Shown: positions 1,436 to 60,185 of the stretch, one piece after another | How the letters are laid out: each line of letters begins with the position of its first letter | How positions within the stretch are numbered: the stretch's first letter is position 1 | NCBI GenBank assembly: GCA_903896015.1 | Contig: CAITWF010000025.1 | Location: 1 to 64,000, forward strand | Source of the DNA: an uncultured Opitutia bacterium | Lineage (GTDB): Bacteria; Verrucomicrobiota; Verrucomicrobiia; Opitutales; Opitutaceae | Direction of reading: 5' to 3' | DNA length: 64,000 nucleotides | Program-made: the position numbers and the translations under genes | The notes under the pieces: generated by a model | Databases searched by the model: none | Seen by the model: only the letters and a program-made list of their open reading frames with translations | What the model was told of the DNA's origin: nothing

Positions 1436-1466
1436 ACGCGCCGGCGATTTCGAACACCTCGCGCAA

Positions 1467-2978: not shown

Positions 2979-3054
2979 AGGCGATGGCCCGACTCTGCCA
3001 GAACCGCGCGCGAAATAAAATCTGTTTCGGCGCACCTACGTGCCCCGTGCGCGC

Positions 3055-3975
3055 TCAAGCAACGGGCTTCGAGGCTACCGCGAAAAACCCGACTGTCTCC
3101 AGCGCTGCGCGCAACGCCGCCTCGTCCGCAACCGACAGCGCGCGCATCGGCAGCCGCACCGGCCCACAGTCGAGCCCGATCAGTTTCATAATCGCCTTGC
3201 CCGCCGGCTGACCACCGAAACGGATCATCACCTCGATGAACGCCCGCGCCTTCGCTTGCTCACGCTCCGCCGTCACACGGTCGCCCGCAGCGAAGGCGCG
3301 CATGATGCCGACATAAAGCGGCGAGGCATAATTATAGGTGCTACCTACCGCACCGGTCGCGCCGTCCTGCAGCCCGGTCAGCAAAAGCTCATCGCGCCCG
3401 AACAGCACGTCGTAGTCGTCGCCGCCGATCGCCCGCGTCGCACGATAGTCTGCGAGGTCTTCGTAGGTGAATTTGATTCCCGCAAGCGTCGGGATTTTCG
3501 CCCGCGCCTCCGCGAGAAATTCCGCCGTCGGGATCGTCACTCCGGTCATCGACGGGATGTGGTAATAAAAAAACGGCAGGCGTGGCGCCGCTGCGGCAAC
3601 ATCCGCGCACCACGCGACCAGTTCATGGACGCTCGTGGGCTTAAAGAAACTCGGCGCGACCGCCGCGATCGCATCTGCGCCGATGGCTTGCGCGTGCTGC
3701 GCGAGCGCGCGCGCCTCGCCCACACTCAAATGCCCGACGTGCGCGATGATGGTCAGTCCGCGCGGCCGAGCCTTAACCCATGCCTCGGTCACCTGCCGGC
3801 GCTCGTCGTTCGTCATCGAGGCACCTTCGCCGGTCGTGCCGCAGACGAAGGCGCCGATGACGCCGTTGGCGGCGAGCGAACGCGCCAGCCGCGGGATGCG
3901 TTCAAGCGCAAGCTGGCCGTCCGGTGTGAACGGCGTAAACGGCGCGGCGACGAGCCCGGGGAGTTTGAACTTCAT
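3055..3975 (-). CDS. nanA: N-acetylneuraminate lyase (DapA/NanA superfamily)
   Basis: A 306-residue TIM-barrel aldolase. GTTGE at 46-50 binds the substrate carboxylate, Tyr138 in YYHIP is the proton-shuttling tyrosine, and Lys168 in GIKFTYEDL is the Schiff-base lysine. The combination of YHIP..TGV with GIKFT matches N-acetylneuraminate lyases, including the animal type, better than dihydrodipicolinate synthase. The reaction splits sialic acid into N-acetylmannosamine and pyruvate in the cytoplasm. The nearby sialidase supports this reading, and nagB at 40985 could serve a later step. The steps between (ManNAc kinase and epimerase, GlcNAc-6-P deacetylase) are not in the window. KDG- or KDPG-type aldolase specificity is the main alternative. 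Confidence 0.8.
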   Translation of the reverse strand: MKFKLPGLVAAPFTPFTPDGQLALERIPRLARSLAANGVIGAFVCGTTGEGASMTNDERRQVTEAWVKARPRGLTIIAHVGHLSVGEARALAQHAQAIGADAIAAVAPSFFKPTSVHELVAWCADVAAAAPRLPFFYYHIPSMTGVTIPTAEFLAEARAKIPTLAGIKFTYEDLADYRATRAIGGDDYDVLFGRDELLLTGLQDGATGAVGSTYNYASPLYVGIMRAFAAGDRVTAEREQAKARAFIEVMIRFGGQPAGKAIMKLIGLDCGPVRLPMRALSVADEAALRAALETVGFFAVASKPVA

Positions 3976-4050
3976 GTGCGGCGGAGGCGTGATGATGGGG
4001 CGCGACGGGAGTCACTCAATCGCCCGCCGGTGGTGCCAGACTCATACCTC

Positions 4051-4371
4051 TCACGCTGGCATCCATCCGCCCGCGTGCGCCACTTCCTCGGCCTCGATTT
4101 TTTCATCAGGCAATTCCTCGAGCGGCGCGAACCGCTCCGACGAAAATCCCAACTCCTGATTACCTTGGTGAAACGGATCGGGCGGGTTTTTCAGTTCCGC
4201 GAGCAGCAGCCCGACGGTCGCGGTCTCGCCACCGCGCACGATTTTTTCGCGCCCGAGAAACACCTCGCGAATCGTGTAGGTATCGTGCTTCACCGGCAGT
4301 TGCTGGTAAAGCGCACGGATGGTGGGGGTGAACGTGTCGTTCACGCAGACAACTTTTTGGCCTTTAATCAT
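4051..4371 (-). CDS. Small protein of unknown function
   Basis: A 106-residue soluble protein with no signal peptide or membrane segment. It opens MIKGQKVVCVNDTFTPT, has a basic middle (REVFLGREKIVRGGETATV) and an acidic C-terminal third rich in Glu (LEELPDEKIEAEEVAHAGG). I do not recognise a family. It starts 4 bp after the stop of the DUF5069 gene on the same strand, so the two are almost certainly co-transcribed. The length, the good start and the tight coupling make a real gene likely. Confidence 0.6.
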   Translation of the reverse strand: MIKGQKVVCVNDTFTPTIRALYQQLPVKHDTYTIREVFLGREKIVRGGETATVGLLLAELKNPPDPFHQGNQELGFSSERFAPLEELPDEKIEAEEVAHAGGWMPA

Positions 4372-4375
4372 GACG

Positions 4376-4837
4376 TCATTCGATCCGACCTTCGTCGAAA
4401 TCCATCAAGTCGGGAATGCTTTTAATTTCGTCCGCACGATCGGCGCAACCCATCGCGCTGAGTGCCTCCTTGATGAAACCGCGGCCGGCTTCCGTCATGC
4501 CCATTTGCACGTAGCGGCGATTCCATTTGTCGGCGCGCACGTCGGGAGGGAGGAGCTGTTCCAACCTCGCCTCGATTTCTTCGTCCGTCGCGGACTCATG
4601 GACAATTTTCTCCACCGCCGCCGGTTCGATCCCGAGGTGCTGGGACAAAAACCGATCACAGCCGCGCTTGTAGTTCTTCGCGTAACTCGGCGGCAGCGCA
4701 CCGTGGGCCTTCACATATTTGCACTTCGCGAGAAACCGCGGGAGGTGCAGCAACCCCGTCGCCGCGTGCGGCAGATAAGCCGACGGCAGCGACGTGAGGA
4801 CGTCGCCGCTGGAGCCGGGAATCGGTTTCGAAGGCAT
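4376..4837 (-). CDS. DUF5069 domain protein
   Basis: A 153-residue soluble protein. LPRFLAKCKYVKAHGALPP in the first third and the pattern of a GIE..VE segment followed by a D-E-E-I-E acidic helix match what I know of DUF5069 proteins (LPR-x-LDK-x-R opening). The family has no established function. It sits between the GH109-like gene upstream (33 bp) and the 106-residue unknown gene downstream (4 bp), inside the carbohydrate locus and on the same strand. A link to sugar metabolism would be inference from position only. Confidence 0.65.
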   Translation of the reverse strand: MPSKPIPGSSGDVLTSLPSAYLPHAATGLLHLPRFLAKCKYVKAHGALPPSYAKNYKRGCDRFLSQHLGIEPAAVEKIVHESATDEEIEARLEQLLPPDVRADKWNRRYVQMGMTEAGRGFIKEALSAMGCADRADEIKSIPDLMDFDEGRIE

Positions 4838-4870
4838 AAGCGGTGAGTGACGCGCGCAGAGCGCTCCCGG

Positions 4871-6256
4871 TCAAGACACGACGCCGAGCGGCGCCGTCGT
4901 TTCCCACGCGCCGCGCGTAAAGTCCGGCACGACGATCGGCGCGCCGCCCTGCGCGACTGACTGCTCGCTCAGTGGCCCAACCGCGCTCCATGCGGCCGCG
5001 TCATAAACATCCTGATCGAGTGGCAGGCCTTCGCGCAGGCACTGCACAATCCGCCAGCGCATCACAAAATCCATCCCGCCGTGGCCGCCCGCGCTGCCCG
5101 GCGGCAGCTTCGCGGCGGCATCCGCCACTTTCTTCCACAACGGATGGTCAAACTCCGCATAGTACGACGCGAGATCCGTGTCCCACTGGTCGGGTTTTGC
5201 ACTGCGGCCTTCGAGATAAATCCGGCTCGGGTAACCGACGAAGTTGCCGCGCGTGCCGCGGATCGTATTGAGGCGCGAATAGGGCGTGGCGTTGCTCGTG
5301 TCGTGCTGCACGAGGATCGTGCGGCCGCGAGCAGTCTTCACGATCGAGGTGTTGAGATCGCCGCACGCAAACTTCATCCCGCGCCGCGGATGATCTGCGG
5401 GAAGATTTTTCGCCGCGTAGTCGACGAGCCCCGCCGCCGGACTGCTGAACGACACGAGCCGGTCAAACCGATCGCCGCGGTTGATGGAGAGGTATTGCGC
5501 GACGGGGCCGAGGCCGTGCGTCGGGTAGAGGTTGCCGTCGCGCCCGAGGTGCTCGGGGATGCGCCACAGGCCCTCGCCCTGACCGGCAGAAATCCCTTTC
5601 ATCTGCGCCCGCAGATCGTGGAGATAAGCGCCCTCACCGTGGAGCAACTCACCGAATAATCCCTCGCGGCACATGCGCAGCAGCATGAGTTCGTCGCGAC
5701 CATAGCAGCAATTCTCCATCATCATGCAGTGGCGCTGCGTCTCCTCGGCGACTTCGACGAGTTGCCAGCAATCCTCGAGTGTCACGGCCGCCGGTACTTC
5801 AATGAACGCGTGCTTGCCCGCACGCATCGCCGCGACCGCCATCGGCACGTGCCAGCGCCACGGGGTGCAAATCATTACGGCATCGACGTCATCGCGCGCG
5901 ACGAGCCGGCGAAAATCTTCGTCGCCGTTGCCGAAATCCGCGGGACGGGGCGCGCCGGCTTTTTCCACCACGGCGAGCCCGGCGTAGAGCGCGGGCCGGT
6001 AGTTGTCGCAGAGCGCGGTCACGCGCACGCCTTCGAGCACGAGCATCTGCCGCAACGTCGGACCGCCGCGCTCGCCGAGTCCGATGATGCCGAACCGCAC
6101 GGTGTCGAGCTTGGGCGCGCGCAGGCCGACCACGCTTTTGCCTTTCGTGCGCGGCGGCACGCTGTCGGTGGCGCAGCCCGTGGCGCTCAGTGCGAGCGCA
6201 GCAGCGCTCGCAGTCGTGACGGTTTTGAGGAAATCGCGGCGGGTGGATTGCGGCAT
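4871..6256 (-). CDS. Gfo/Idh/MocA-fold protein, GH109-like (alpha-N-acetylgalactosaminidase family)
   Basis: A 461-residue protein that begins with a twin-arginine signal (TRRDFLK at 5-11) and a lipobox-like LSATGC ending at Cys28, so it is probably exported through Tat as a lipoprotein. The NAD-binding motif GIIGLGERG is at 56-64. The segment FIEVPAAVT (around 151-159) and YPTHGLGPV (244-252) are features of GH109 rather than of ordinary sugar dehydrogenases, which carry E-K-P at the first site. GH109 enzymes use a tightly bound NAD to hydrolyse alpha-GalNAc by oxidation and elimination. With a sialidase and a GH92 mannosidase nearby, O-glycan or other host-type glycan breakdown is a reasonable inference. 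A plain oxidoreductase remains possible. Confidence 0.75.
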   Translation of the reverse strand: MPQSTRRDFLKTVTTASAAALALSATGCATDSVPPRTKGKSVVGLRAPKLDTVRFGIIGLGERGGPTLRQMLVLEGVRVTALCDNYRPALYAGLAVVEKAGAPRPADFGNGDEDFRRLVARDDVDAVMICTPWRWHVPMAVAAMRAGKHAFIEVPAAVTLEDCWQLVEVAEETQRHCMMMENCCYGRDELMLLRMCREGLFGELLHGEGAYLHDLRAQMKGISAGQGEGLWRIPEHLGRDGNLYPTHGLGPVAQYLSINRGDRFDRLVSFSSPAAGLVDYAAKNLPADHPRRGMKFACGDLNTSIVKTARGRTILVQHDTSNATPYSRLNTIRGTRGNFVGYPSRIYLEGRSAKPDQWDTDLASYYAEFDHPLWKKVADAAAKLPPGSAGGHGGMDFVMRWRIVQCLREGLPLDQDVYDAAAWSAVGPLSEQSVAQGGAPIVVPDFTRGAWETTAPLGVVS

Positions 6257-6289
6257 GGGGATATCGGGGTTGAACGGAAAAACAGGAAA

Positions 6290-7609
6290 TTATTTCTTCT
6301 TCGCCGGCGGCGGGACGGCGAGCTTCGTTTTGAAAATCGGCACGGATCTCGGGGCGGTGGGCTGCGCGTCGCCGACGTCAAAGTGACTCCACCCAGCGTT
6401 GCCGACGAAGAAAAAATCACCGCCCACCGCGATGCAACCAAGCGTAGGATCGGCCATGTTGGGGTGACCCGACTCAAGGACGGTCACCGCGGTGACCGAT
6501 TCGCCGGTGTCGTCGAGTTTGATTCGCAAAACGCGTTTCGGCCGCAGTCCGTTCTGCGTCGCGATGAGATCGCCGTTCGGCGCGCGGACAAGACCATCGA
6601 GCCCGATGAGGGTGGTGTCCGGAGGCGAGTCCATCCGTGTCAAGGCGCGCGACGCCAAATCGATCCGCAGGAGGCCGCTAGCGTAGTCGGTGACATAGAG
6701 CGCATTGAACTCCGGCGCGACGACCGCGCCCTGCAGCGACATGAAATCCGCGTTGCGCACAAACGCCTCCAGCGCGTCCGCGCCCGACGCGAGCCGCCAC
6801 AGCACTGGCGCACCGCTATCCGGCAAAAAGATCGCGCCGTCCGGCGCCAGCACAAGACCGCCGAGCACGTGCGTCTGGTGATCGGCGAGCTTGGGCAGCC
6901 GCACCACGCGCCGCACCGCGCCGCTCTCCAGATCGAATTCTGCGACGCCCGCTGCGCTGTCGAGGTCGTTCGTGTAGCCGCTCATTGCCGGCACGGCCGA
7001 AGTCGCCGCCCACAACGCGCCGCGCTCCTCGTCGACAGCGAGACCGAACACACCGAAGACAGTTTCGTCCTGCGGTGTGAAGCGCCGCACCTTTTTATCC
7101 TTCGTGCGCAGCCACACCGTCCGGTTATGCACGTCGCCGAAGAAGAAATCACCCGTCTTCTCGCGCCACGCGATCCCTTCGATCACGCCGGTCATGTCGG
7201 AGAGCGTGAACGCGATGTCCGCCTCGCCGATGGCGACAAGATTGTTGCCGAGTTTGGTGAGCACGTCCTTGAAATCCTTGCGGCCACGCAGCGCAGCAAA
7301 CTCCTCCGACCTGTCGACCGGCGAGTTCACCCCGAGCGCCGCGAGCCGGTTGAGCGTCGCGATTGCATCGTCGGCGCGGTCGTTGGCAAGTAGGGCAGCG
7401 GCGAGGTTCGTCAGGATGCGTGGGAAATCCGGCCGCAGCGCCGCGGCCGCCTCCATTTTCGCAAGATAGGTCGGAAAATCTTTTTCGTCCGCTGCGGCCG
7501 CGCCTTCCCGCGCGAGCTTCATCGCCTCGGCGGCCGGCGGCGGCTCGGCACGGGCGGCGCAGAGGGCGAGCGCGAACCCCAAGGCGAAACGCGGCACGGA
7601 TGTTTTCAT
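6290..7609 (-). CDS. Secreted TPR plus SMP-30/NHL-type beta-propeller protein
   Basis: A 439-residue protein with a signal peptide (residues 1-21, ending CAARA). Residues about 25-95 form TPR-like helices (PTYLAKMEAAAALRPDF.. then RADDAIATLNRLAALG). From about 115 onwards there are repeated blade-like segments such as EGIAWREKTGDFFFGDVHNR, FGLAVDEERGALWAATS, GLVLAPDGAIFLPDSG and LDGLVRAPNGDLIATQNG, typical of six-bladed gluconolactonase/SMP-30 or NHL propellers. It ends in a Lys-rich tail (PPPAKKK). It lies 33 bp upstream of the GH109-like gene on the same strand. No catalytic assignment is safe; it could bind or hydrolyse a sugar lactone, or be a binding protein. Confidence 0.7.
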   Translation of the reverse strand: MKTSVPRFALGFALALCAARAEPPPAAEAMKLAREGAAAADEKDFPTYLAKMEAAAALRPDFPRILTNLAAALLANDRADDAIATLNRLAALGVNSPVDRSEEFAALRGRKDFKDVLTKLGNNLVAIGEADIAFTLSDMTGVIEGIAWREKTGDFFFGDVHNRTVWLRTKDKKVRRFTPQDETVFGVFGLAVDEERGALWAATSAVPAMSGYTNDLDSAAGVAEFDLESGAVRRVVRLPKLADHQTHVLGGLVLAPDGAIFLPDSGAPVLWRLASGADALEAFVRNADFMSLQGAVVAPEFNALYVTDYASGLLRIDLASRALTRMDSPPDTTLIGLDGLVRAPNGDLIATQNGLRPKRVLRIKLDDTGESVTAVTVLESGHPNMADPTLGCIAVGGDFFFVGNAGWSHFDVGDAQPTAPRSVPIFKTKLAVPPPAKKK

Positions 7610-7758
7610 GGGGTGCGAGAAACCGCGACTGTGCGCCGCCGGGCGGGGCTTGGCAACAGGCGCGATGAATTTCGTGGTAACGTTGCGCGGGCTTGCACCC
7701 GCCGGCGAAAACGGAAACGACGGAGTTGCGTCCGTGCGACGCGCCCCGCCCCACCCCG

Positions 7759-10023
7759 ATGCGTTTCTCCGCCCTCCTGTCCTGCTTGCTCGCCGCCTCG
7801 CTGCCGATCGCGCGAGCCCAATCCACCGCGATCGAAGATCTCGTCGATCCGTTAATCGGCTCAGCGGGACGCGGTTCTTGCATGCCGGGACCGTGCCTGC
7901 CGCATGCTTCGATCTACCCGAGCCCCGAAACCCTCGGCGCCACGCCGGGTGGCTATGCCGGCGGCCAGCCGATCGTCGGCTTCGCGCAACTTCATACGCA
8001 GGGCACGGGTGGCAATCCCTCCTACGGAAATTTTCTGATCACACCGCGCCTCGGCCTCGCCATCAACGAAGCCGATCACGCCTCGCCGAAAGCCGACGAA
8101 GTCGCCAAGGCCTACGGCTACAGCGTGCGGCTCACGCGCGACAACATCCGCGCCGAGATCGCGCCCGCGCGCCACAGCGCGATTTACCGCTTCACGTTTC
8201 CCGCGAGTGACGAGGCGCACATCAACCTTGATGTCGCCCGCAAGATTCGCGGCGAGATCGCGCTCGACGAGGGCGCCGTGAACATCGATCCGGCGACGGG
8301 CCTGATCACAGGCGGCGGGCATTTTTCCAAGAACTGGAATCCCGCGCCGTATGAAGTCTATTTCGCGGCGCGTGTCAGCGTCGCGCCTGCCGCCATCGGC
8401 ACGTGGACTGGCACCGAGGTCCACGCGGGCGCGGCCGGTGGCAGCGTGCGCACGACCGAGGTAACTCTGCCCAACGGCAAAAAGGAGAAACGCAACCAGT
8501 CGCTTGGCGCGTTCCTGCGCTTCAAAACCTCCGCCGGTCAGCAAGTGCTGCTAAAGATCGCGGTGTCGTTCACCTCCGTCGCGCAGGCGCAACGCTGGCT
8601 CGAAGCGGAAATTCCCGCGTGGGATTTCGACGGCGTGCACGCAGCCGCCGCGGCCACCTGGCATCGCGCCTTGGGCCTCGTCACGCTCGGCGGCGCGAGC
8701 GACGAAGAGGCGCGCAAGTTCACGACCGGCGTCTGGCACGCCATGGTCCAACCCCGCGATCGCACCGGCGACCTGCCCGGATTCGATCCGAAGGCGCCGC
8801 TCTGGGACGACCACTACACGCTCTGGGACACGTGGAAATCGCTCTTCCCGCTCATGGCGATCCTTGAGCCGGAGGCCATGCGCGACAACGTCCGCTCCTT
8901 CATCGAGCGCCACCGCATCGCATCCGACGGCTACGTCGCCGAAGCATTCATCCAGGGCAAAGAGTTCAAGGCGGGCCAGGGCGGCAACGAAGCCGACAAC
9001 GTGATCGCCGACGCCTACGCGAAAAAAATTCCGGGCGTCGACTGGGAGCAGGCCTATGCCGTAATGAAACACCACGCCGAGCACGCACGCACCGTGAATT
9101 ACCGCGAGCACGGCTGGATGGCGAGTGACGAGAAGACCGACTACAGCCACCGCATCCGCTCCGGATCCGCGACGCTTGATTTCGCCTACAACGATTTCAA
9201 CGCCGCGCAGATGGCCCGCGGTCTTGGCCACACCGCCGACGCCGAGCGCTATCTCGCGCGTTCGAAAAACTGGCTCAACGTTTGGGACGATTCGCTTGAG
9301 AGCGACGGCTACCGCGGCTTCGTGCGCGGCCGCGCGCGTGACGGAAAATTCTCCACCACGTCGGCGACACAGGGATTCAACACCGATTTCTACGAGGCGA
9401 TCTGCTGGGAGTTTTCCTTCAACGTCCCGCACGATCTGCCCGGGCTGGTCGAGAAGATGGGTGGACGCGCGACGTTCATCCGCCGGCTCACACACGCGTT
9501 CCGCGCGGGCTACATCGACTTCGGCAACGAGCCGGCCTTCATGTCGCCATGGCTCTTCGCCCGGGTCGGCCGGCCGTATCTCGCCTCGTATTGGGCCGAT
9601 CAACTTCGCGGCGAATACGCCAACGTCAACCTGCCGGGTGATGACGATGATGGCGCCATGAGTTCCCTCTACGTCTTTCTCACCACGGGATTCTTTCCCG
9701 TCGCCGGGCAGGACGTTTATTTTATCCACGGTCCCCGCGTGCCGGAAATCACCTTTCATCTGACCAACGGAAAGACGTTCACCGTCAGCGCCGAACATGC
9801 CGGCGGAAAAAATCTCTACGTCCAGCGCGCCACACTCAACGGCCGCGCGCTCGATGAGCCGAGCTTTCATCACGGGGACCTCGTCGCCGGTGGCGAATTG
9901 CACTTCTTGATGGGCCCGCAACCGAGCGCGTGGGGCACGCGCGGTGATTTCGATCCCGCCGCCGCGGCGGCGGAAGTCGCGCCCGCGCCGCGCCCACCCT
10001 ACCTCGGCAATCCCGCCCGCTAA
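7759..10023 (+). CDS. Secreted GH92 family alpha-mannosidase
   Basis: A 754-residue protein. The ATG at 7759 begins a signal peptide (MRFSALLSCLLAASLPIARA); the frame is open 22 codons further but that part looks non-coding. GH92 landmarks in order are: VDPLIGS near the mature N-terminus, LWDDHYTLWDTWKSLFPL (usual SLWDTYRTLHPL), GNEADNVIADAY, the segment around WEFSFNVPHDLPGLVEKMGG, and GDDDDGAMSSLYVFLTTGF, which carries the calcium-linked acidic residues. The family removes alpha-linked mannose from N-glycans and yeast mannan with inversion and Ca2+. It is transcribed divergently from the propeller gene with about 150 bp between the starts. Confidence 0.9.
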   Translation: MRFSALLSCLLAASLPIARAQSTAIEDLVDPLIGSAGRGSCMPGPCLPHASIYPSPETLGATPGGYAGGQPIVGFAQLHTQGTGGNPSYGNFLITPRLGLAINEADHASPKADEVAKAYGYSVRLTRDNIRAEIAPARHSAIYRFTFPASDEAHINLDVARKIRGEIALDEGAVNIDPATGLITGGGHFSKNWNPAPYEVYFAARVSVAPAAIGTWTGTEVHAGAAGGSVRTTEVTLPNGKKEKRNQSLGAFLRFKTSAGQQVLLKIAVSFTSVAQAQRWLEAEIPAWDFDGVHAAAAATWHRALGLVTLGGASDEEARKFTTGVWHAMVQPRDRTGDLPGFDPKAPLWDDHYTLWDTWKSLFPLMAILEPEAMRDNVRSFIERHRIASDGYVAEAFIQGKEFKAGQGGNEADNVIADAYAKKIPGVDWEQAYAVMKHHAEHARTVNYREHGWMASDEKTDYSHRIRSGSATLDFAYNDFNAAQMARGLGHTADAERYLARSKNWLNVWDDSLESDGYRGFVRGRARDGKFSTTSATQGFNTDFYEAICWEFSFNVPHDLPGLVEKMGGRATFIRRLTHAFRAGYIDFGNEPAFMSPWLFARVGRPYLASYWADQLRGEYANVNLPGDDDDGAMSSLYVFLTTGFFPVAGQDVYFIHGPRVPEITFHLTNGKTFTVSAEHAGGKNLYVQRATLNGRALDEPSFHHGDLVAGGELHFLMGPQPSAWGTRGDFDPAAAAAEVAPAPRPPYLGNPAR

Positions 10024-51402: not shown

Positions 51403-52650
51403 ATGGAAAAAAAGCGCCAGTTCAACGACCAACCCTTCGCTTATCATGCGGAGCTCGAGTTGGACATCACTACGCTGACGAATCTCGGCGTCGGACTCGG
51501 CCGTGTCGCCTTGCCCGGCGAGGCCGAGGCAAAATGGGTCGTCATGGTGCCCTTCACGCTGCCCGGCGAGCGCGTGCGTGCCCGGGTGTTTCGCAACCAA
51601 AAGAATTTCTCCGAAGCCGATCTCGTTACGGTGCTCACCCCGTCGCCGCATCGCGTCGCGCCCGTGTGTCCCCTGTTCGCGCGCTGCGGCGGCTGCCAAT
51701 ACCAGCACCTCGCCTATGCCGAGCAACTCGCGTGGAAGCAGCGCCAGGTCGCCGAACTACTCCAGCACATGGCCGGGATCGAGTTTCCGGTGTCGCCCGT
51801 CGTAGCCTCGCCGCGCGAACTCGGCTACCGCTCGAAGATCACGCCGCATTTCAATCCCCCCCGTGATCCCGCCGTAGCACCCGCGATCGGGTTTCTGCGG
51901 CAGGGCACGCGGTTCGACATCGTTGACGTTCCCCGCTGTCCAATCGCGACCGACGCGATCAACGAAAAGCTCCCTGAAGTCCGTGCGCGGGTGCATGCGC
52001 GCGCCGCCGCCGGGGAATACCAGCGCGCCGCCACGCTCCTCCTGCGCGAAGCGAGCGGCGCGGTCACGACCGACTACGATGCGGTTATCACCGAAACCGT
52101 CGGCGAACTGCGGCTGAAATTTCTCGCCCGCGATTTTTTCCAGAACAACCCGTTCATCCTACCCGCGTTCGTTGCCTACGTCCGCGATCAAGCCGCAGCG
52201 AGTGGCGCGCGCTTTCTCGTCGACGCCTATTGCGGCAGCGGGCTTTTCGCGCTGGCGTCCGCGCCGGCCTTCACGTGCGTCGCCGGCGTCGAGATCAGCG
52301 AAAGCAGCGTGAAGTTCGCGCGCGAAAACGCCGCGGCCAGCCACATCGCCAACGCCACCTTCCTCGCCGCCGATGCCGCCGCCATCTTCGCCGACCTCGA
52401 TCCGGCGTTTGCCGCCGCCGACACCGCCGTCGTGATCGATCCGCCGCGCAAGGGTTGCGACGAACAGTTCCTCCAGCAGCTCTTCGCCTTTGGCCCGCGC
52501 ACCGTCGTCTACGTGTCATGCGATCCGGCGACACAGATGCGCGACCTCCGCCATTTTCTCACCGCCGGCTACAAACTAACCGCCGCGCAGCCCTTCGATC
52601 TTTTCCCGCAGACACGCCACCTCGAGTGCGTGCTGACCCTGCGGCGCTAG
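51403..52650 (+). CDS. TrmA/RlmD-family RNA (uracil-C5) methyltransferase
   Basis: A 415-residue enzyme. A TRAM-like OB domain (about 15-75) precedes the Fe-S cysteines CPLFARCGGCQY. The methyltransferase core has FFQNNPFILPAFV, the SAM site VDAYCGSGLFALA, IDPPRKGCDEQF and the catalytic Cys in YVSCDPATQMRDL, with Glu in the final HLECVLTL. It methylates uridine in 23S rRNA or tRNA. It is divergent from the TrmH-family gene across the inverted repeat. Confidence 0.92.
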   Translation: MEKKRQFNDQPFAYHAELELDITTLTNLGVGLGRVALPGEAEAKWVVMVPFTLPGERVRARVFRNQKNFSEADLVTVLTPSPHRVAPVCPLFARCGGCQYQHLAYAEQLAWKQRQVAELLQHMAGIEFPVSPVVASPRELGYRSKITPHFNPPRDPAVAPAIGFLRQGTRFDIVDVPRCPIATDAINEKLPEVRARVHARAAAGEYQRAATLLLREASGAVTTDYDAVITETVGELRLKFLARDFFQNNPFILPAFVAYVRDQAAASGARFLVDAYCGSGLFALASAPAFTCVAGVEISESSVKFARENAAASHIANATFLAADAAAIFADLDPAFAAADTAVVIDPPRKGCDEQFLQQLFAFGPRTVVYVSCDPATQMRDLRHFLTAGYKLTAAQPFDLFPQTRHLECVLTLRR

Positions 52651-52660
52651 CGACAAAACG

Positions 52661-53656
52661 TCATTTGATCGTCGTCGTCTCGGCGGGGACCAAGAGCGTG
52701 CGGTTGCTCGGATCGCGGGCGTCGTCGGTGCGCGGGTAGTCGCGCCAGAGCCAGCGGAGCATATCGGGGAGAATCGCGCCGCCTTGTTTGTTCGAATGCG
52801 TGCCGATGCCCCACGTGTAGTTCACGTCGTAGCCCTTCTCGGTGAGCGCGGCGGCCATCTTGAGGTTTTGCGCGTGCCAGTCGCGATCGGCGGTGTAGGT
52901 GGCGGCGGCGCCCTCGCCGCGCAGGCCACGGTTGTCGTTCACGCCGTCCTGCAGAAAAATCCGGATCGGCTTCTTCTCCGTGGCGCGGATGAGATCGGGA
53001 TAAACGTGGCCGCCGCGGATGTTCGTGAAACTGCCGATCGTGCTGAGCACTTTGTGAAATTGATCAGGCCGGTGCCAGGCCACGGTGAACGCCGCGATCG
53101 CCCCGGAACTGGCGCCGGCGATTGCCCGGTCGTCGGGATTCTTTGAGAGGTTATACTCCCTGGCCAGCACCGGCAGGAGTTCGTCGGTGATCACGTGGGC
53201 GTATTTGTCGTCGAGGGCATTGTATTCCTGCGGGCGGTTGGTCGATTTGTCGCCCCAATCGGAGGCGCTCGCCTCGGGCTGCTCGGGCTTGCGCCCCGGG
53301 TTGATGAAGACGGCGATCGTCACGGGCATTTCGCGGCGATAAATCAGGTTGTCGAAGACATAGGGCGTGCGGTAATCGCCGGTCAGTCGCAGCCACGCCT
53401 GGCCGTCCTGAAAGATCATGAGCGCGGCGGGCTTCGCTGGATCGTATTGGGCGGGGACGTAGACGCAGTAGTCGTGCAGCGTGCCGGGATAGGCTTCGCT
53501 CGGGAGCTTGGCCCACGCGGTCACCTTGCCTTGCGGCACGCCAGGGTGCGGCTCGGAGTCGGGGCCAAGCTTGTAGACGTCGTCCGTCGGAGCGGCGGAA
53601 AGCCGCAGCGCAAGGAAGAGCGACCACGTGGCGAAAAAGCGAAGACGTTGCTTCAT
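52661..53656 (-). CDS. Secreted esterase (enterochelin esterase-like, CE1-type)
   Basis: A 331-residue alpha/beta-hydrolase with a signal peptide (ATG at 53656, [22 protein letters not shown]). The nucleophile Ser lies in [11 protein letters not shown] and the His in [32 protein letters not shown] is typical of Esterase D/enterochelin-esterase-like secreted enzymes. It may remove acyl or feruloyl groups from polysaccharides. It is the third gene of an operon with the DUF1592 and DUF1552 genes, 28 bp after the latter. Confidence 0.8.
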
Positions 53657-53684
53657 GTGAAATCGGAGAATCGCGGCCGCCGCC

Positions 53685-55106
53685 TCAGACGCCCGCCAGA
53701 CGCCCGCTCGAATCGCCAATGCGATCGAGCCCACGGATGCCGAGCCGATCGTTCATGCTCAGGAAGAGATTGGACATGGGCTGCGAGTTATATTTCGCGT
53801 AGCGCCCGGGGGTGAGCGTGCCGCCGCCGGCGCCGGCGAGGACCACCGGGAGATTCGTGTGCGTGTGGCGGTTGCCGTCGGCGTTGCCGCAACCGTAGAC
53901 GATCATCGAGTTGTGGAGGAGGGACTTTCCGTCGACGTCCTTCGTCTGGTCCAGTTTTTCGAGGAAACGCGCGAAACGCTTCATGTAATGAAGATCGATG
54001 TCGGCGACTTTCCCCATCAACTCCGGGTTGTTACGGTGGTGCGAGCAATAGTGGTGCCCTTCGGGAATTCCGATTTCGGTGAAGGCTCGGTTGCTGCCAT
54101 CGTTGGCGAGCAGGAGCGTCGCGATCCGCGTCGAGTCGGTCTGAAACGCCATCGCAAGGAGATCATACATGAGGTCCATGTGCTCGCCGAAGTCCCCGGG
54201 GATTCCACTCGGCACCTCGGCGTGCGGATCGGGGAGGGCGCCGAAGCTTTCCGTGCGTTGGATGCGCTGTTCGATGGCGCGGACGCCCGTGAGATATTCA
54301 TCGAGCTTGGCGCGATCATTGGAAGTGAGCTGGCGTTGAAGTGCGTGCGTGTCGTCGAGCACGAAATCAAGCAACGATTTCTGCGTGCGCTGCCGCAGCT
54401 CGAAATTTTTTTGCCGTTCGCCCGGCGCGCCGCTGCCGAAGAGCCGCTCGAAGACGAGACGCGGATTCGGTTCCGGTGTCATCGGCGTGGAAGCCGAGCG
54501 CCACGAGAGATTATATTGGTAGGCGCAGGAGTAGCCGCTGTCGCAACTGCCGGACTTGCGCACGCTGTCGCACGAGAGTTCGAGGGACGAGAAGCGCGTG
54601 AGGTGGCCGATCTGTTGCGCGGCGAGTTGATCAACGGAGATGCCGGCCTGGATGTCGGCGCTGTCGGTTTTGCGGGCGCGCACACCGGTCAGGAAGGTGG
54701 CGTTAGCGCGCGCGTGATCACCGGCGCCGTCGTTGCCGGGCTCGGCGTTTTTGTGATCGAGGCCGCCGACGACTTGGATGGAGCTTTTCAACGCGGCGAG
54801 CGGCTGCATGGTGCGGCCGAGTTCGAAAGCTGCGCCTTCGCCGGTGGGCCACCACGCCTGCTGGTGCGCCCCATTGGGGAAATAAACAAACGCCATGCGC
54901 AGCGGCGCGCCGGTACTGGTGACGCCGAGCGGATGACCGGTGCCGGCCGACGCGGCGGTCGCAGCGCGGAGGACGGGAGCGAGCGACGACTCGAACACGG
55001 GCAGCGCCATGCACACGCCGAGACCGCGCAGGAAATTTCGCCGCGTAAGGGACAGGTGACGTTCGAGCCGGGCCGTCTGCGCATCGGTGGATGGAGTATT
55101 TTTCAT
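53685..55106 (-). CDS. DUF1552 protein with Tat signal
   Basis: A 473-residue protein. The ATG at 55106 leads to a twin-arginine signal ([21 protein letters not shown] at about 20-40, shown here in part: [15 protein letters not shown]). The body has the DUF1552 features [31 protein letters not shown] and later [14 protein letters not shown]. These proteins are related to the DUF1501/alkaline-phosphatase-like fold and are typical of Planctomycetes and Verrucomicrobia, with no known activity. They are normally paired with DUF1592 cytochromes, as here (28 bp gap). Confidence 0.88.
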
Positions 55107-55134
55107 GGGAGAATGCGGAGACGGACGAGGCGGG

Positions 55135-57771
55135 CTAGGGGGAAACTGAAGTGACGCCAGCGAGGGCGGCGGGGTTGCGGAGTTTCTGAAACGGCGCCGA
55201 ATCGATGATGCCGTTGAGCAGCGTCGAGAACCGGCCGTGATCTTTTTCCAGGCAATCGACGACTTGATCGACGGTCTGGACATCGTAGTATTCGAGGCCG
55301 CGGCCGAGGGCGTAGGTGAGCAATTTTTCCGTGAGGCAGCGGTAGTAATCAAGGCGGCGCTCGTGGGTAAGGATGTGCTTCAAATCGCGGATGTCCTTGA
55401 AGGGCTCGCCCGTGACGAGTTCGCCAGCGGGATTGATGGGCTGCCTCGCGTCGGTGTCGCGCCACATGCCCAGTGCGTTGAAATTCTCCAGCGCAAAGCC
55501 GAGCGGATCCATGCGGGCGTGGCAGGAGGCACAGAGAGCCTTGTTGCGATGCGCCGCGAGCGCCTCGCGCAATGGGAGCTCTTTGCCGTCGGCGCCCCTG
55601 GCCGATTCCTCCAGCGCCGGAATGTCGGGCGGCGGCGGCGGCGGCGGGGTGCCCAGAAAATTTTCGAGCACGAACAGCCCACGCTTCACCGGCGACGTGC
55701 GTGTCGGGTTCGAGGTGACTGCGAGCGTTGTCCCCTCGGTGAGAAAACCGCCGCGCGGGCTGTCGGCCGGCAGCGTCACGCGGCGAAGGTTGTCGCCCTC
55801 GATTTCCGGCAGGCCGTAGTGCGCGGCAAGCTTGGCGTTGACGAACGTGTAATCGGCGTCGATGAATTCGAGCACGCTGCGGTCTTCGCGGAGCACGTAG
55901 TCGAAGACCATTTCGGTTTCGCTGCGCATCGCCTTGCGCATCGCGCCGTCGAGTTCCGCTTTGCTGGAGAGGTTGCCGCGGGCGTTGCCGATGCCGAGCA
56001 CGGCGCGCGCGTTGATCGGCACCGTCTCGATGTCGCGGGCCTGCAGCCACTGCCCGGGGAAATTGCGGACGAAGCCCTGCACTTTCGCGTCCTTTAACAT
56101 GCGCGCAACCTGTGCCGGCAGCTCCTTCCGCAGCGCGCCGCGACTCGCCAGACTGAAGAGTTCCGCGTCCGGCATGCTCGACCACAGGAAATACGAGAGT
56201 CGCGACGCGAGCGCGTAGTCGTCGACCGCGGCGAACCGCTGGGCGGCCTCGCCCGGCGTCGGCGATTCGAGGCGAAACAGGAAACGCGGCGAGGCGAGCA
56301 CGGCCATCATCGCGCGCGCGATGCCGTCCTCATACCTCGCTCCCGGCGCGGCGTAAACGCCGTGGGCGATCTTCACGAGTTGCGCGATCTTCGCGTCGTC
56401 GATCGGGCGGCGAAAGGCCCGCGTGGCGAAAGCGCGAAGGACTTCCGGCGCGTAAGCATCGCGCTCCGCCGTCGTGGTGGGCGGCGTCTCGCGCGGGAAA
56501 AACCGCGCATAATTTTCCGTCGGCACCCAATAATTTTGCTCCATCGGGCCCGTGAATTGCGCGGACATGATTCGCAGATCCACCGAGCGCGCGACGGGCG
56601 GGCCACCGCGATTGCCCGGCCCACCCGCCCTGCGCGCACCCGCGGGCGGCGTGGCTCCGGCCATTCCCGCCACACCACCAGCCGGTGCCACGGGCATCTC
56701 AGCCGCCGCGGCGAGTTTTTCCGTCTCGGGCTTTTCGGCGTCGGGTTTCGCCGCGTCGAGCGGAGGCAGTGGCTGCAGGTCGACCGTCACCCGATGCGAG
56801 CCGGCCTCCCAATGTTGCTCGTGTTCGTAGCGGACGTTTTTGCCGCCCCAGACGATCTCCTCCCGCCGCCGTTCTTCGCCGTCGATAGCGAGGACCAGCA
56901 GGGCGCGGCCCTGATCAAAATCGAACGTGCTCCGCACGCTGGCCTCGAACGCGAATTTGTAGGTGCCCGCGTGCGCAAGCGCAAAGGAATGCGACGCGCG
57001 CCCACCGCGGCGGGCGTTGAGATCGCCGCCTCCGCCGCCGCGACCCGCATTACCACCGGCTTTTTTCATCCCGCCCTTTTCGCCTGAGGTTTCGCCCGCC
57101 CCTTCATCCTGGGGCCGGGCCTCCCGGCGAAAATCGCGCGTCAACGCGATCAACTTCGCCGGCACCTTGGCGACCCGCGGCACCGCTTGATCGACAATCT
57201 CCTCGGCGGCTTGCAGATATTTCTCCAGCAGGAGCGGTGAGACCGTCAGCACCTCGCCAAGATTATCGAAGCCGTGGCCAGTGTCGTCCGGCGGAAACTC
57301 CACCTCGCTGTTAAAATCAATCCCCATCAAATCGCGAATGGTGTTGTGATATTCGACGCGGTTCAGCCGCCGCACCGTCACCCGGCCCGGATCGGGATGC
57401 GCCGGATCAATGCCGAACGCCTGAAATTTGATCCACCGCTCAAGTTGTCCGATCTCTTCGGCTGTGGGGCGCGGTCCATCGTCCTTGGGCATGAGACCGG
57501 AGCGAACGTTTTTCAGCACCTTCGCCCACAAATCATGGGATGAAAGAATCTTCGCGTCGGAGTCCAACTCGTCGAACGCGACGTGACCCTTTTCAATTCC
57601 GTCGCCATGGCAGTCGTAACAATACCGCACCAGCATCGGCTCGATGGTTTTCCGATAGTCGGCCACTGCGGGCGCGTTTACGTTCGATGCCGCCGATGCA
57701 GCCGTGCCGACTACGGTGGCCGCAGCCAAAGCGAGACTGGCGCGCAGAGAAGGGACGGAGAATTCAACCAT
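55135..57771 (-). CDS. DUF1592/DUF1587 planctomycete-type cytochrome c protein
   Basis: An 878-residue secreted protein; the ATG at 57771 opens a signal peptide. An N-terminal heme site CYDCH is at 51-55. DUF1587 (VRRLNRVEYHNTIRDLMGID), a CBM-like region, DUF1595 (RAFATRAFRRPIDDAK), DUF1592 (DYALASRLSYFLWSSMPDAE), DUF1588 (PRGGFLTEGTTLAVTSNPTR) and DUF1585 (LTEKLLTYALGRGLEYYD) follow in order. A second CASCH heme site is at about 747-751. Two Gly/Ala/Pro-rich insertions (about 216-250 and 341-394) interrupt the CBM-like region. It likely passes electrons in an unknown oxidative reaction outside the cytoplasm, with the DUF1552 partner. Confidence 0.9.
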   Translation of the reverse strand: MVEFSVPSLRASLALAAATVVGTAASAASNVNAPAVADYRKTIEPMLVRYCYDCHGDGIEKGHVAFDELDSDAKILSSHDLWAKVLKNVRSGLMPKDDGPRPTAEEIGQLERWIKFQAFGIDPAHPDPGRVTVRRLNRVEYHNTIRDLMGIDFNSEVEFPPDDTGHGFDNLGEVLTVSPLLLEKYLQAAEEIVDQAVPRVAKVPAKLIALTRDFRREARPQDEGAGETSGEKGGMKKAGGNAGRGGGGGDLNARRGGRASHSFALAHAGTYKFAFEASVRSTFDFDQGRALLVLAIDGEERRREEIVWGGKNVRYEHEQHWEAGSHRVTVDLQPLPPLDAAKPDAEKPETEKLAAAAEMPVAPAGGVAGMAGATPPAGARRAGGPGNRGGPPVARSVDLRIMSAQFTGPMEQNYWVPTENYARFFPRETPPTTTAERDAYAPEVLRAFATRAFRRPIDDAKIAQLVKIAHGVYAAPGARYEDGIARAMMAVLASPRFLFRLESPTPGEAAQRFAAVDDYALASRLSYFLWSSMPDAELFSLASRGALRKELPAQVARMLKDAKVQGFVRNFPGQWLQARDIETVPINARAVLGIGNARGNLSSKAELDGAMRKAMRSETEMVFDYVLREDRSVLEFIDADYTFVNAKLAAHYGLPEIEGDNLRRVTLPADSPRGGFLTEGTTLAVTSNPTRTSPVKRGLFVLENFLGTPPPPPPPDIPALEESARGADGKELPLREALAAHRNKALCASCHARMDPLGFALENFNALGMWRDTDARQPINPAGELVTGEPFKDIRDLKHILTHERRLDYYRCLTEKLLTYALGRGLEYYDVQTVDQVVDCLEKDHGRFSTLLNGIIDSAPFQKLRNPAALAGVTSVSP

Positions 57772-58019
57772 GGAGCGGGGTCGCAAGCGCAAGACGGGGT
57801 GGGTGGGCAAACGTCGCATCGAATCTCGTGCCCGACGGCGGCGCTTCCGCTACGGTTATATGGCCAGCGGTTGGTTTCAAATATTTCCGCGCTCCTCGTC
57901 CACCGGACAGTCATCTCACGACGATGCGGAACCCCTCGGCGTGCGTTTGCACCTCGTGTCTCGGGAGTTGCCAAACGATGACGGTGTTTCAGCGTAGCGG
58001 GCGCACGACCCAAACACCT
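57772..58019. promoter_or_regulatory. Divergent intergenic region
   Basis: About 250 bp between the divergent DUF1592 gene and the EF-hand membrane protein gene. It must hold both promoters. I see no convincing -35/-10 pair, palindrome or terminator in it; the reading frame that is open through it on the plus strand has no start signal or family similarity. Confidence 0.4.
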
Positions 58020-60185
58020 ATGAGCGCCCCTTCCCATTCCTGGAATTTCTTCCGCACCGGCGGACTCGACCAAGTCTCGCTTACGACCGCCGCCGATCTG
58101 CTCGCGCTCGATCAACTCGATCAAAAGCTCTGGGTCGCGCTCAGTTGTCCGGTGAAGGGCCTCGAGCTCGACGAGAAAACGCTCGCGCTCATCGACGCCG
58201 ACGCCGACGGCCGCATCCGCGTGCCCGAGCTGCTCGCCGCTGTAAACTGGGCCGCCGCCCGGCTCGGCGATCCCGCCGACCTGTTGCACGGTGCCGACGC
58301 GCTACCCCTTACCGCGATCAATGCTGCAACTCCCGAAGGCAAGCTCCTCCTCGCCTCGGCCCGGCAAATCCTCACCAATCTCGGCAAGAGGGATGCCACC
58401 GCGATTTCTGTCAGCGACGCAGCCGACACGGCGAAAATTTTCTCCGCGAGCGCGCTCAACGGCGACGGCATCATCCCGCCCGAAGCGACCGCCGACGCGG
58501 CGCTGCAGGCGCTCATCAAAGACATCGCCACCTGCACCGGCGGCAAACCCGCGCGCACCGGTTCAGTCGGCATCACCGCCGAGCAGATCGAAAAATTTTT
58601 CGCGGAAGTGTCGGCTTATATCGCCTGGGCCAGCCAGAGTGCCGGGGCCGAAATCGCCGTGCTGGGTGAGGGGACGGCCGCTGCGGTCGCCGCCGTCAAA
58701 GCCGTCCGCGCGAAAGCCGATGATTTCTTTGCGCGGTGCCGGCTGGCCGCATTCGACGCTCGCGCGACTCCCGCGCTGAATCGCACCGAGGCGGAGTTCC
58801 AAGTGGTGGCCGCGAAGGAGTTGAAGCTGTCCGTCGAGGAAGCCGCGGTGTTTCCGCTCGCACGCATCGAGGCCGCGCGGGCGCTGCCGCTGTTCGACAG
58901 CGTCAATCCCGCCTGGGCCGCTGCACTCGCGACTTTGCACGCGCAGGCGATTACGCCGGTGTTCGGTGCGGCAAAAACGTCACTGACCGAGGCCGAATGG
59001 ATCGCGCTCAACGCCAAACTCGCCGCCTACGAAACCTGGCTCGGCGGCAAGGCCGGCGGCGCCGTCGAAAAGCTCGGGCTCGCCCGGCTCCAGGAGATTC
59101 TCGCGGGCTCCGGCCGCACGGCGCTCGCCGCGCTCGTCGCACAGGACGCCGCGCTCGCACCGGAATTCAAAGCCATCAGCGATGTCGAGCGCCTCGCGCG
59201 CTACCATCGCGACCTTCGTGCGCTCCTGCACAATTTCGTCAACTTCGCCGATTTCTACTCGCGCGATCGCTATGCCGTTTTTCAGGCGGGCACGCTCTTT
59301 CTCGACAGCCGCAGCACCGAGCTCTGTCTGCGCGTCGACGGACCCAACCCGCTCGCCGCGATGAGCAAGGCCTACATTGCTTACTGCACCTGCACCCGCG
59401 CCGGCAGCCCGCCGATGAACATCGCGGCCTGCTTCACGCAGGGCGACAGCGATTACCTCTTCGGCGGCCGCCACGGCGTGTTCTACGACCGAGCCGGTCG
59501 CGACTGGGACGCGGTCGTCACCAGCATAACCGACAATCCGATCAGCATCCGTCAGGCGTTTTGGTCGCCCTATAAAAAGTTCCTCCGCTTCGTCGAGGAG
59601 CAGGTGGCCAAGCGCGCCGCCTCCTCCGAGGCCGCCGAGTCGGCGAAACTCGCCGCCGCGGCCGAGTCCGCCGCCAACACGTCGCTGACGCCGCCCCCAC
59701 CGCCGCCCGCGAAAAAAATCGATGTGGGTGCCGTCGCGGCGATTGGGGTCGCGATCACTGGCGCGATCAGCGCGCTCACCCTGATTCTCGGCTACGTTTT
59801 CCAACTGAAATTCTGGCAATATCCGCTCTCACTCGTCGGGCTCATGTTCGCAGTCTCGACGCCCGCCGTGATCATTGCGTGGCTCAAGCTCCGCCAGCGC
59901 ACCCTCGGCCCCATCCTCGAAGGCAACGGCTGGGCGGTGAACGGCCGCGTGAAAATCAACATCCCCTTCGGCACCGCGCTCACCGAACTCGCCGTCCTAC
60001 CGCCCGGCGCCCAGCGCTCGCTCGAGGATCCCTATGAGGACAAGGAGGCCGCGAAACAAAAACGCCGCGCCACCGCGCTCATCGTGCTCGCGTTCCTCGC
60101 GGCCGCCGCGATCTGGATCCGCTGGGATCACAACCAGCGCGGGCACTACTTCTGGGAAACCAAAAGCATGACCGAGGTGAAGTAG
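58020..60185 (+). CDS. Membrane protein with EF-hand, unknown function
   Basis: A 721-residue protein; the ATG at 58020 is chosen because similarity to any plausible protein starts there. It has a perfect EF-hand loop at 59-70 (D-A-D-A-D-G-R-I-R-V-P-E) and a degenerate one at about 145-156 (NGDGIIPPE). A long Ala-rich helical region runs to about 540. A Ser/Ala and Pro-rich linker (PPPPPPAKK) leads to two TMs (about 569-594 and 600-622), a soluble strand-rich segment and a last TM (about 685-700). No family I can name fits. It may be a calcium-responsive membrane protein. Confidence 0.7.
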   Translation: MSAPSHSWNFFRTGGLDQVSLTTAADLLALDQLDQKLWVALSCPVKGLELDEKTLALIDADADGRIRVPELLAAVNWAAARLGDPADLLHGADALPLTAINAATPEGKLLLASARQILTNLGKRDATAISVSDAADTAKIFSASALNGDGIIPPEATADAALQALIKDIATCTGGKPARTGSVGITAEQIEKFFAEVSAYIAWASQSAGAEIAVLGEGTAAAVAAVKAVRAKADDFFARCRLAAFDARATPALNRTEAEFQVVAAKELKLSVEEAAVFPLARIEAARALPLFDSVNPAWAAALATLHAQAITPVFGAAKTSLTEAEWIALNAKLAAYETWLGGKAGGAVEKLGLARLQEILAGSGRTALAALVAQDAALAPEFKAISDVERLARYHRDLRALLHNFVNFADFYSRDRYAVFQAGTLFLDSRSTELCLRVDGPNPLAAMSKAYIAYCTCTRAGSPPMNIAACFTQGDSDYLFGGRHGVFYDRAGRDWDAVVTSITDNPISIRQAFWSPYKKFLRFVEEQVAKRAASSEAAESAKLAAAAESAANTSLTPPPPPPAKKIDVGAVAAIGVAITGAISALTLILGYVFQLKFWQYPLSLVGLMFAVSTPAVIIAWLKLRQRTLGPILEGNGWAVNGRVKINIPFGTALTELAVLPPGAQRSLEDPYEDKEAAKQKRRATALIVLAFLAAAAIWIRWDHNQRGHYFWETKSMTEVK

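Follow-up and report, generated by a model that had tools for sequence, protein, structure and literature searches.

Gene pairs of this type have been described in Verrucomicrobia, where genes for PSCyt3-type cytochromes mostly adjoin a single unknown gene family, carbohydrate-binding modules (CBMs) are present in some, and a carbohydrate role was proposed (PMC5615132). The partner family is probably DUF1552, because the word DUF1552 occurs three times in that paper. The DUF1592-DUF1552 pair is widespread and known as a kind. In other work the PSD1 and PSC2 domains were taken to suggest a redox function (PMC2754498), and a DUF1592 protein with a CBM2 domain was described from Cellvibrio in a lignocellulose-degrading community (PMC6004670); the relevant parts of PMC7789669, PMC12175321, PMC12078418 and PMC13274419 added nothing on function. 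The locus analysed here is a DUF1592-DUF1552 pair followed by an esterase gene. It lies at positions 52,661 to 57,771 of the first 64,000 nucleotides (the window) of contig CAITWF010000025.1, from an uncultured Opitutia bacterium (assembly GCA_903896015.1), a draft genome of 4.96 Mb in 123 contigs.

New here are the predicted alkaline phosphatase/sulfatase fold of DUF1552 and the nucleophile missing from it, a CBM-like beta-sandwich in the DUF1592-type protein, recurrent PF00756 esterases as neighbours of the pairs and, statistically weaker, a pectin-type gene context. In the open-access literature searched (supplements, preprints and most subscription papers lie outside it), no report of a DUF1552 fold or of linkage to esterase or pectin genes was found.

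Esterases and glycan-degrading genes beside the pairs

Searches with the window proteins were carried out in a family set of 61 genomes (E <= 1e-40 for DUF1552, E <= 1e-20 for the esterase). The DUF1552 query gave 130 places in 23 of the 61 genomes, up to 17 in one genome, and the esterase query had matches in 25. The source genome has seven DUF1552 and seven DUF1592 places on the same contigs, near each other. A second sample of 80 named loci was fetched with a DUF1552 profile; a DUF1592 gene is directly upstream on the same strand for 64 of their 83 DUF1552 hits, and some of the others are at contig ends. By record titles most of these loci belong to Verrucomicrobiota or Planctomycetota; Acidobacteriota account for some, Pseudomonadota for two, and one is labelled Acidimicrobiia. 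The nearest named relatives of the window DUF1552 are metagenome assemblies labelled Opitutaceae, Opitutus or Opitutae. Genomes, contigs and loci are denoted below by G, C and L numbers, G000 being the source genome.

Relatives of the window's esterase with a DUF1552 gene no more than 1 kb away were found at G000:C25 (the window itself), G000:C84, G017:C88, G020:C1 and G050:C3, those at G000:C84 and G017:C88 being on the opposite strand. Further relatives are beside DUF1552 in the named loci L035, L041 and L056, and more distant PF00756 esterases in G050 C81, L026, L037 and L043. When PF00756 esterases were counted (150 of 154 places listed), 7 of the 130 DUF1552 genes had one within 1 kb against 1.2 expected (P 3e-4, under uniform placement), and 14 of 130 within 4 kb against 3.0 expected (P 3e-6). 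Controls counted in the same genomes, from the best 150 places each, were flat. For short-chain dehydrogenase/reductase (SDR) genes the values were 0 within 1 kb (0.75 expected) and 1 within 4 kb (1.9 expected), and for sulfatases 1 (1.0 expected) and 4 (2.5 expected). A sulfatase as a fixed partner of the pairs was rejected on these counts, which are near expectation. Searched with a profile for these esterases, to which three of the later hits had contributed, the 80 named loci gave six; each is at most 207 bp away from a pair, and the 731 kb of flank beyond 1.5 kb contain none. When the profile was made instead from nine esterases located away from pairs, it found five, all of them beside pairs (L041, L056, L035, L037 and L026).

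The esterase linkage is real but sporadic. None of the seven nearest relatives of the window DUF1552 (67-75% identity; G031, G017, G043, G026, G054, G024 and G050) has the window's esterase within 10 kb. For G024 the contig continues for just 1.1 kb, and in G050 C81 another PF00756 esterase is found at a distance of 565 bp. When the presence of an esterase, noted for 12 rows, is mapped onto a tree of 99 DUF1552 proteins, 8 changes are needed, all forced by well-supported branches, against a shuffled mean of 11.5; the labelled rows are no random sample, because four of them (L102, L103 and two of L104) were fetched for their esterase. The rows nearest to the window DUF1552 by path are without an esterase. 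Given the sporadic linkage and the eight changes, esterases seem to have been recruited to pairs several times, and the DUF1592-DUF1552 pair appears to be the core, with the esterase as an accessory.

The window esterase matches Pfam PF00756 with 69 bits (cut-off 22) and has both a GxSxG motif and a distal His; it looks like an intact serine alpha/beta hydrolase. Its best NCBIfam match is enterochelin esterase (NF007758), at 43.1 bits against a cut-off of 222. Sequence matches in the PDB are to enterochelin esterase and, equally good, to feruloyl/CE1 esterases. Its candidate membership of CAZy family CE1 is drawn from these matches in Pfam and the PDB. Genes of the esterase family adjoin a glycoside hydrolase (GH) gene of family GH106 in L107, and lie two genes off one in L106 and three genes off in L105. 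In the family member at L116:6668-8425 (G000:C48) the esterase is joined to an SMP-30/gluconolactonase domain; such fusions may be common, because many members have open frames of ~600 aa. At L101:5331-11043 (G054:C14) the tail-to-tail neighbour of a 79%-identical esterase, the second-closest from another genome, is a sister cytochrome-partner system made up of DUF1501 and PSCyt1-DUF1549-DUF1553 genes.

Genes for glycan degradation recur around some pairs. Contig C11 of the source genome carries a gene of polysaccharide lyase (PL) family PL22, the oligogalacturonate lyase family, then a BD-FAE-type esterase, a pair, a second BD-FAE-type esterase, a second pair, a GDSL acylhydrolase and GH43. 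A pair is followed by an esterase and a GH78-like gene in G020, and by a PF00756 esterase and GH78 in G050 C81 (loci L102 and L115). The pair of G050 C3 (L103) stands among an arabinofuranosidase C-terminal domain, GH127 and a weak GH32-like match on one side and a PF00756 esterase, GH3 and a fucosidase-like gene on the other. GH31 precedes the pair of G024 (L114). In G017 C88 (L104) a cytochrome gene, a gene for a 696-aa hydrolase-like protein, two DUF1552 genes, an esterase on the opposite strand and GH28 are found together, and GH28 is near a pair also in L020. In G031 (L089) an orthologue of the window pair points towards a stretch with a gene for a spermidine-synthase-domain protein, two GDSL esterase genes, PL22 and another pair. 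Within the 14-row clade of the window DUF1552, a recognised esterase, GH or PL gene was present in the fetched stretch for 10 rows (L114, L115, the window, L111, L113, L089, L112, L024, L020 and L026) and none of the families looked for in 4 (L109, L022, L110 and L025); in this count stretch lengths vary, part of the genes were scanned, there is no matched background, and the L089 and L112 rows are identical.

Background counts were also made for two of these families, PL22 and GH78. PL22 is within 1 kb of 3 of the 130 DUF1552 genes against 0.32 expected (P 0.004), and within 5 kb, a cut chosen after the data were seen, of 5 against 0.92 expected. Together with the GH78 counts given below, these make the pectin-gene link of the pairs suggestive and weaker than the esterase link. 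For BD-FAE (PF20434, 274 matches) one match within 1 kb of a DUF1552 gene was seen by eye among the matches listed, and no claim is drawn, because both C11 copies fall outside those matches. In the 80 named loci five BD-FAE genes are near pairs and one is far, with a profile built in part from two of those five. GH106 was within 4 kb of one DUF1552 gene by eye (G017 C56), and again no claim is drawn.

The first-pass annotation of the locus had seen in it a possible undescribed degradative module and had proposed a survey of DUF1592-DUF1552 pairs for co-occurring hydrolases, an idea to be given up if the esterase were linked to such pairs in no other genome. The survey placed esterases beside pairs elsewhere (G017, G020, G050, L035, L041 and L056), above expectation and with flat SDR and sulfatase controls. 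The degradative part of the proposal agrees with the recurrence of glycan-degrading genes around some pairs; the module is, however, not undescribed as a kind (PMC5615132).

Predicted structures and layout of the operon

The window DUF1552 protein belongs to Pfam PF07586 (346 bits, cut-off 30), with the HXXSHH motif at residues 352-357. An AlphaFold model made from 55 sequences (mean pLDDT 88.3, pTM 0.84) was compared with known structures, and the predicted fold is that of the superfamily of alkaline phosphatases and sulfatases; the best match has Z 17.1 and spans 264 residues at rmsd 3.5. Judging by their titles, the top 50 matches are presumably sulfatases, phosphodiesterases, phosphatases, phosphonate hydrolases and domains of the MCR-1 and YejM type. 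Five histidines are invariant across the 55 rows (H131, H351, H352, H356 and H414). The counterpart of the sulfatase C-x-P-S-R motif, placed by eye, falls on residues 126-133 (DGAGDHAR), where Cys, Ser or Thr occurs in 0 of 55 rows; the C/S-x-P-S-R motif of the formylglycine-dependent type I sulfatases is absent. DUF1552 would accordingly appear to have a metal site without the usual nucleophile. Comparison of its profile with three sulfatases gave no match, and a PDB sequence search with it gave no convincing one. With hhalign, DUF1552 aligned to DUF1501 over 350 columns, nearly end to end (E 2.4e-5, probability 75, from just three DUF1501 sequences). The Pfam Tat model scores 13.5 bits on the window protein, under its cut-off of 22.7, and matches 31 of the 55 relatives at E <= 1.

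Pfam domains PSCyt1, DUF1587, DUF1595, DUF1592, DUF1588 and DUF1585 were found in the DUF1592-type protein, and the order of the last five, with two CxxCH motifs, places it in the DUF1592-type planctomycete cytochromes (PSCyt3 group). Met94-Pro95 is invariant in 44 of 44 rows, and Met94 is likely to be the axial Met of heme 1. The AlphaFold model (mean pLDDT 85.6) contains a beta-sandwich inside which both low-complexity insertions fall. In a fold search this domain matched the C-terminal part of xylanase J, which we take to be CBM36 (Z 9.3, rmsd 3.5 over 114 residues), as well as CBM15 (Z 9.1 over 126 residues) and CBM35 (Z 8.9). Among 44 relatives Pfam finds CBM60 in nine and CBM6 in one. 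In the comparison with diheme cytochrome c peroxidases and RoxA-like oxygenases, the beta-sandwich took up the matches of the fold search with the DUF1592-type model, and a PDB sequence search with the DUF1592 profile gave weak matches to class I cytochromes c and nothing convincing.

The three genes follow one another on the minus strand with gaps of 28 bp each (55107-55134 and 53657-53684), and their features are collected in the table. Their start codons are provisional, a further in-frame ATG being present upstream of the DUF1592-type gene at 57819. A consensus scan of 52400-58200 found no sigma-70-like promoter on either strand (0.8 expected by chance), so that the word operon refers to strand and spacing alone. 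What had been noted at first reading stands. The coordinates bear out three genes with 28-bp gaps, Pfam confirms the DUF1592, DUF1552 and esterase families, the two CxxCH motifs agree with a heme protein, and both low-complexity insertions of the DUF1592 protein are present and predicted to be disordered (pLDDT < 50). Export of all three proteins, also claimed, is supported by leaders recognised by eye, two Sec-like (the DUF1592-type protein and the esterase) and one Tat-like.

Features of the three-gene locus, in window coordinates
Feature	Position	Strand	Remarks
DUF1592-type diheme cytochrome gene	55135..57771	-	878 aa; PSCyt1-DUF1587-(beta-sandwich)-DUF1595-DUF1592-DUF1588-DUF1585
Heme c motif 1, CYDCH, residues 51-55	57607..57621	-	CxxCH
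Beta-sandwich domain, residues 202-413	56533..57168	-	between DUF1587 and DUF1595; from model; resembles carbohydrate-binding modules
Low-complexity insertion 1, residues 228-245	57037..57090	-	pLDDT < 50, predicted disordered
Low-complexity insertion 2, residues 344-390	56602..56742	-	pLDDT < 50, predicted disordered
Heme c motif 2, CASCH, residues 747-751	55519..55533	-	both Cys and His in 44/44 rows
DUF1552 (HXXSHH) gene	53685..55106	-	473 aa; alkaline phosphatase/sulfatase-like fold predicted
Tat-like motif TRRNFLRG, residues 21-28	55023..55046	-	by eye
DUF1552 residues 126-141, expected site of sulfatase nucleophile helix	54684..54731	-	H131 invariant; correspondence by eye
HHYCSHH, residues 351-357, name-giving motif	54036..54056	-	H351, H352, H356 invariant; H357 in 52/55
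DUF1552 residues 410-420	53847..53879	-	H414 invariant; H416 in 51/55
PF00756 esterase gene	52661..53656	-	331 aa; feruloyl/enterochelin-esterase-like alpha/beta hydrolase; Sec-like leader
Nucleophile elbow GASSG, residues 181-185	53102..53116	-	esterase
GTHS, residues 285-288	52793..52804	-	likely catalytic His of esterase, role inferred

Several other genes were observed around the pairs. A protein of 721 aa without a Pfam match at E <= 1e-4 is encoded divergently from the DUF1592-type gene (window 58020-60185), and a separate glycan cluster at window 320-10023, at least 42 kb from the operon, comprises a BNR-repeat protein, GH28, a dihydrodipicolinate-synthase family protein, a GH109-like oxidoreductase and GH92. 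On contig C84 of the source genome the DUF1592 and DUF1552 genes are separated by a gene for a hydrolase-like protein of 673 aa, and C117 has the two genes in reverse order. Such alpha/beta-hydrolase-like proteins (GFSMGG; 673 and 696 aa) are encoded between the two genes at L015:8042-10063 and L104:3638-5728, with a relative at L086:4335-6362; the L015 copy matches PF00756 under threshold. In 10 loci (L064, L069, L073, L077, L086, L090, L091, L094, L097 and L098) the gene after the pair, on the same strand, encodes a protein of 714-786 aa that looks HEAT-like by eye. A spermidine-synthase-domain protein recurs close to orthologues of the window pair, or in convergent orientation to them, at L112:8484-10853, L016:17792-19501 and L113:3741-6191, Pfam having been run on the L112 copy only.

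Proposed role and alternative explanations

Since some pairs lie among pectin-type genes, the three genes probably contribute to the degradation of plant cell-wall sugars, and the redox pair perhaps works on a cell-wall polysaccharide of the pectin type. The explanation preferred here, held tentatively and with somewhat less than even confidence, is an exported glycan-acting module for pectin-type polysaccharide, made up of a diheme cytochrome with a CBM-like domain, a DUF1552 protein with invariant histidines and an accessory esterase. The cytochrome would dock on a polysaccharide of the pectin or rhamnogalacturonan type. DUF1552 would bind a metal through its histidines and oxidise, or otherwise cleave, a sugar unit, and the electrons would pass through the two hemes towards the respiratory chain. 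The esterase would take off acetyl or other acyl groups, or open a sugar ester or lactone, enabling the pair or glycoside hydrolases to act.

A number of observations weigh against this module. To our knowledge neither DUF protein has a known activity. In the window the operon is surrounded by housekeeping genes (RNA methyltransferases, lipoate ligase), and the closest glycan-type genes found there, at 0.3-10 kb, are more than 42 kb away. For 123 of the 130 DUF1552 genes there is no PF00756 esterase within 1 kb among the matches listed. The P values assume uniform, independent placement and are optimistic because of gene clustering and shared descent, three of the seven close cases being from G050. 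The PL22 enrichment hangs on the cut, as there are still 3 of 130 within 4 kb against 0.77 expected (P 0.04), and that of GH78 is weak, as the 1-kb cut gives 0 of 130 and the 4-kb cut 3, the latter against 0.65 expected (P 0.03). Other jelly rolls fit the beta-sandwich almost equally (PorU Z 9.1, BcsB 9.0, 4-1BBL 8.8, and phage tail proteins), and the window's own protein has no CBM match at E <= 10, which leaves it outside CBM60 and CBM6. According to PMC5615132, PSCyt coding density and glycoside hydrolase density are negatively correlated (r = -0.62), a trend that argues against a simple pectinase role; the location predicted there is periplasmic or cytoplasmic.

The pair could instead have nothing to do with glycans and form a general redox or stress system of the periplasm, with the esterase as a chance neighbour that has its own substrate. 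The lack of this esterase near the seven closest DUF1552 relatives is consistent with such a system, as are an HD-domain gene (dGTPase-like by eye) preceding some orthologues (L112 by Pfam; L109, L020, L021 and L022 by sequence start) and the listing of RB9955, a DUF1552 gene from R. baltica, in a table of PMC2754498, a study of stress responses. It is considered rather unlikely, because esterases are enriched beside pairs while the controls stay flat, the linkage changed eight times on the tree, and CBM domains occur in some DUF1592-type relatives. The fold shared with sulfatases, phosphodiesterases and phosphonate hydrolases, and invariant His and Asp residues as at metal sites, would suit a DUF1552 that is still a superfamily hydrolase of sulfate or phosphate esters, working with an atypical nucleophile or with water bound to a metal; the cytochrome would then serve for electron transfer or docking only. 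Such a hydrolase is made distinctly unlikely by the 55 of 55 rows without Cys, Ser or Thr at residues 126-133, the profile that matches none of the three sulfatases, and sulfatase genes near expectation beside pairs among the best 150 places; it also leaves the partnership with a diheme cytochrome unexplained. An operon for iron or heme acquisition, with an enterochelin-type siderophore esterase, is very improbable. Enterochelin esterase is indeed the best NCBIfam match and is among the PDB matches, but the score is so far under the cut-off that a siderophore role was rejected; moreover, feruloyl/CE1 esterases match equally well, its relatives include neighbours of GH78 and GH106 genes and the fusion with an SMP-30/gluconolactonase domain.

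If the pectin-type module is correct, an oxidative step would be added to bacterial pectin breakdown. The pairs are numerous in some genomes, and the fold, the lost nucleophile and the esterase neighbours (more weakly the pectin-gene neighbours) point to a function that can be assayed. A wider proposal, which we regard as unlikely, is that DUF1552 and DUF1501 are former hydrolases of the alkaline phosphatase fold turned into His-ligated metallo-oxidoreductases coupled to planctomycete-type cytochromes. They would then form a new class of glycan-oxidising enzymes linked to the respiratory chain in Planctomycetota and Verrucomicrobiota, beside esterases and pectinases.

Comparison with described systems

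The window esterase shares the Pfam family, the GxSxG elbow and a Sec-like leader with feruloyl/acetyl and enterochelin esterases (PF00756), whereas it is under the NCBIfam equivalog cut-offs. In its predicted overall fold DUF1552 is like the members of the alkaline phosphatase superfamily, type I sulfatases included, and it differs from the type I sulfatases in having neither the C-x-P-S-R motif nor a profile match to the three sulfatases. With the PSCyt3 pairs of PMC5615132 the locus has in common the cytochrome domain families, the pairing, CBMs in some members and the proposed carbohydrate role; there, in contrast, sulfatases are the neighbours, and esterases, pectin genes and the fold of the partner are not mentioned in the section concerned. 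The pairs of DUF1501 with DUF1549/DUF1553 (PSCyt2) belong to other Pfam families, and their cytochromes align weakly and at the C-terminus only (E 0.056, probability 1), but they are alike in combining a heme protein with a Tat-type partner, and the alignment of this partner with DUF1552 extends over 350 columns.

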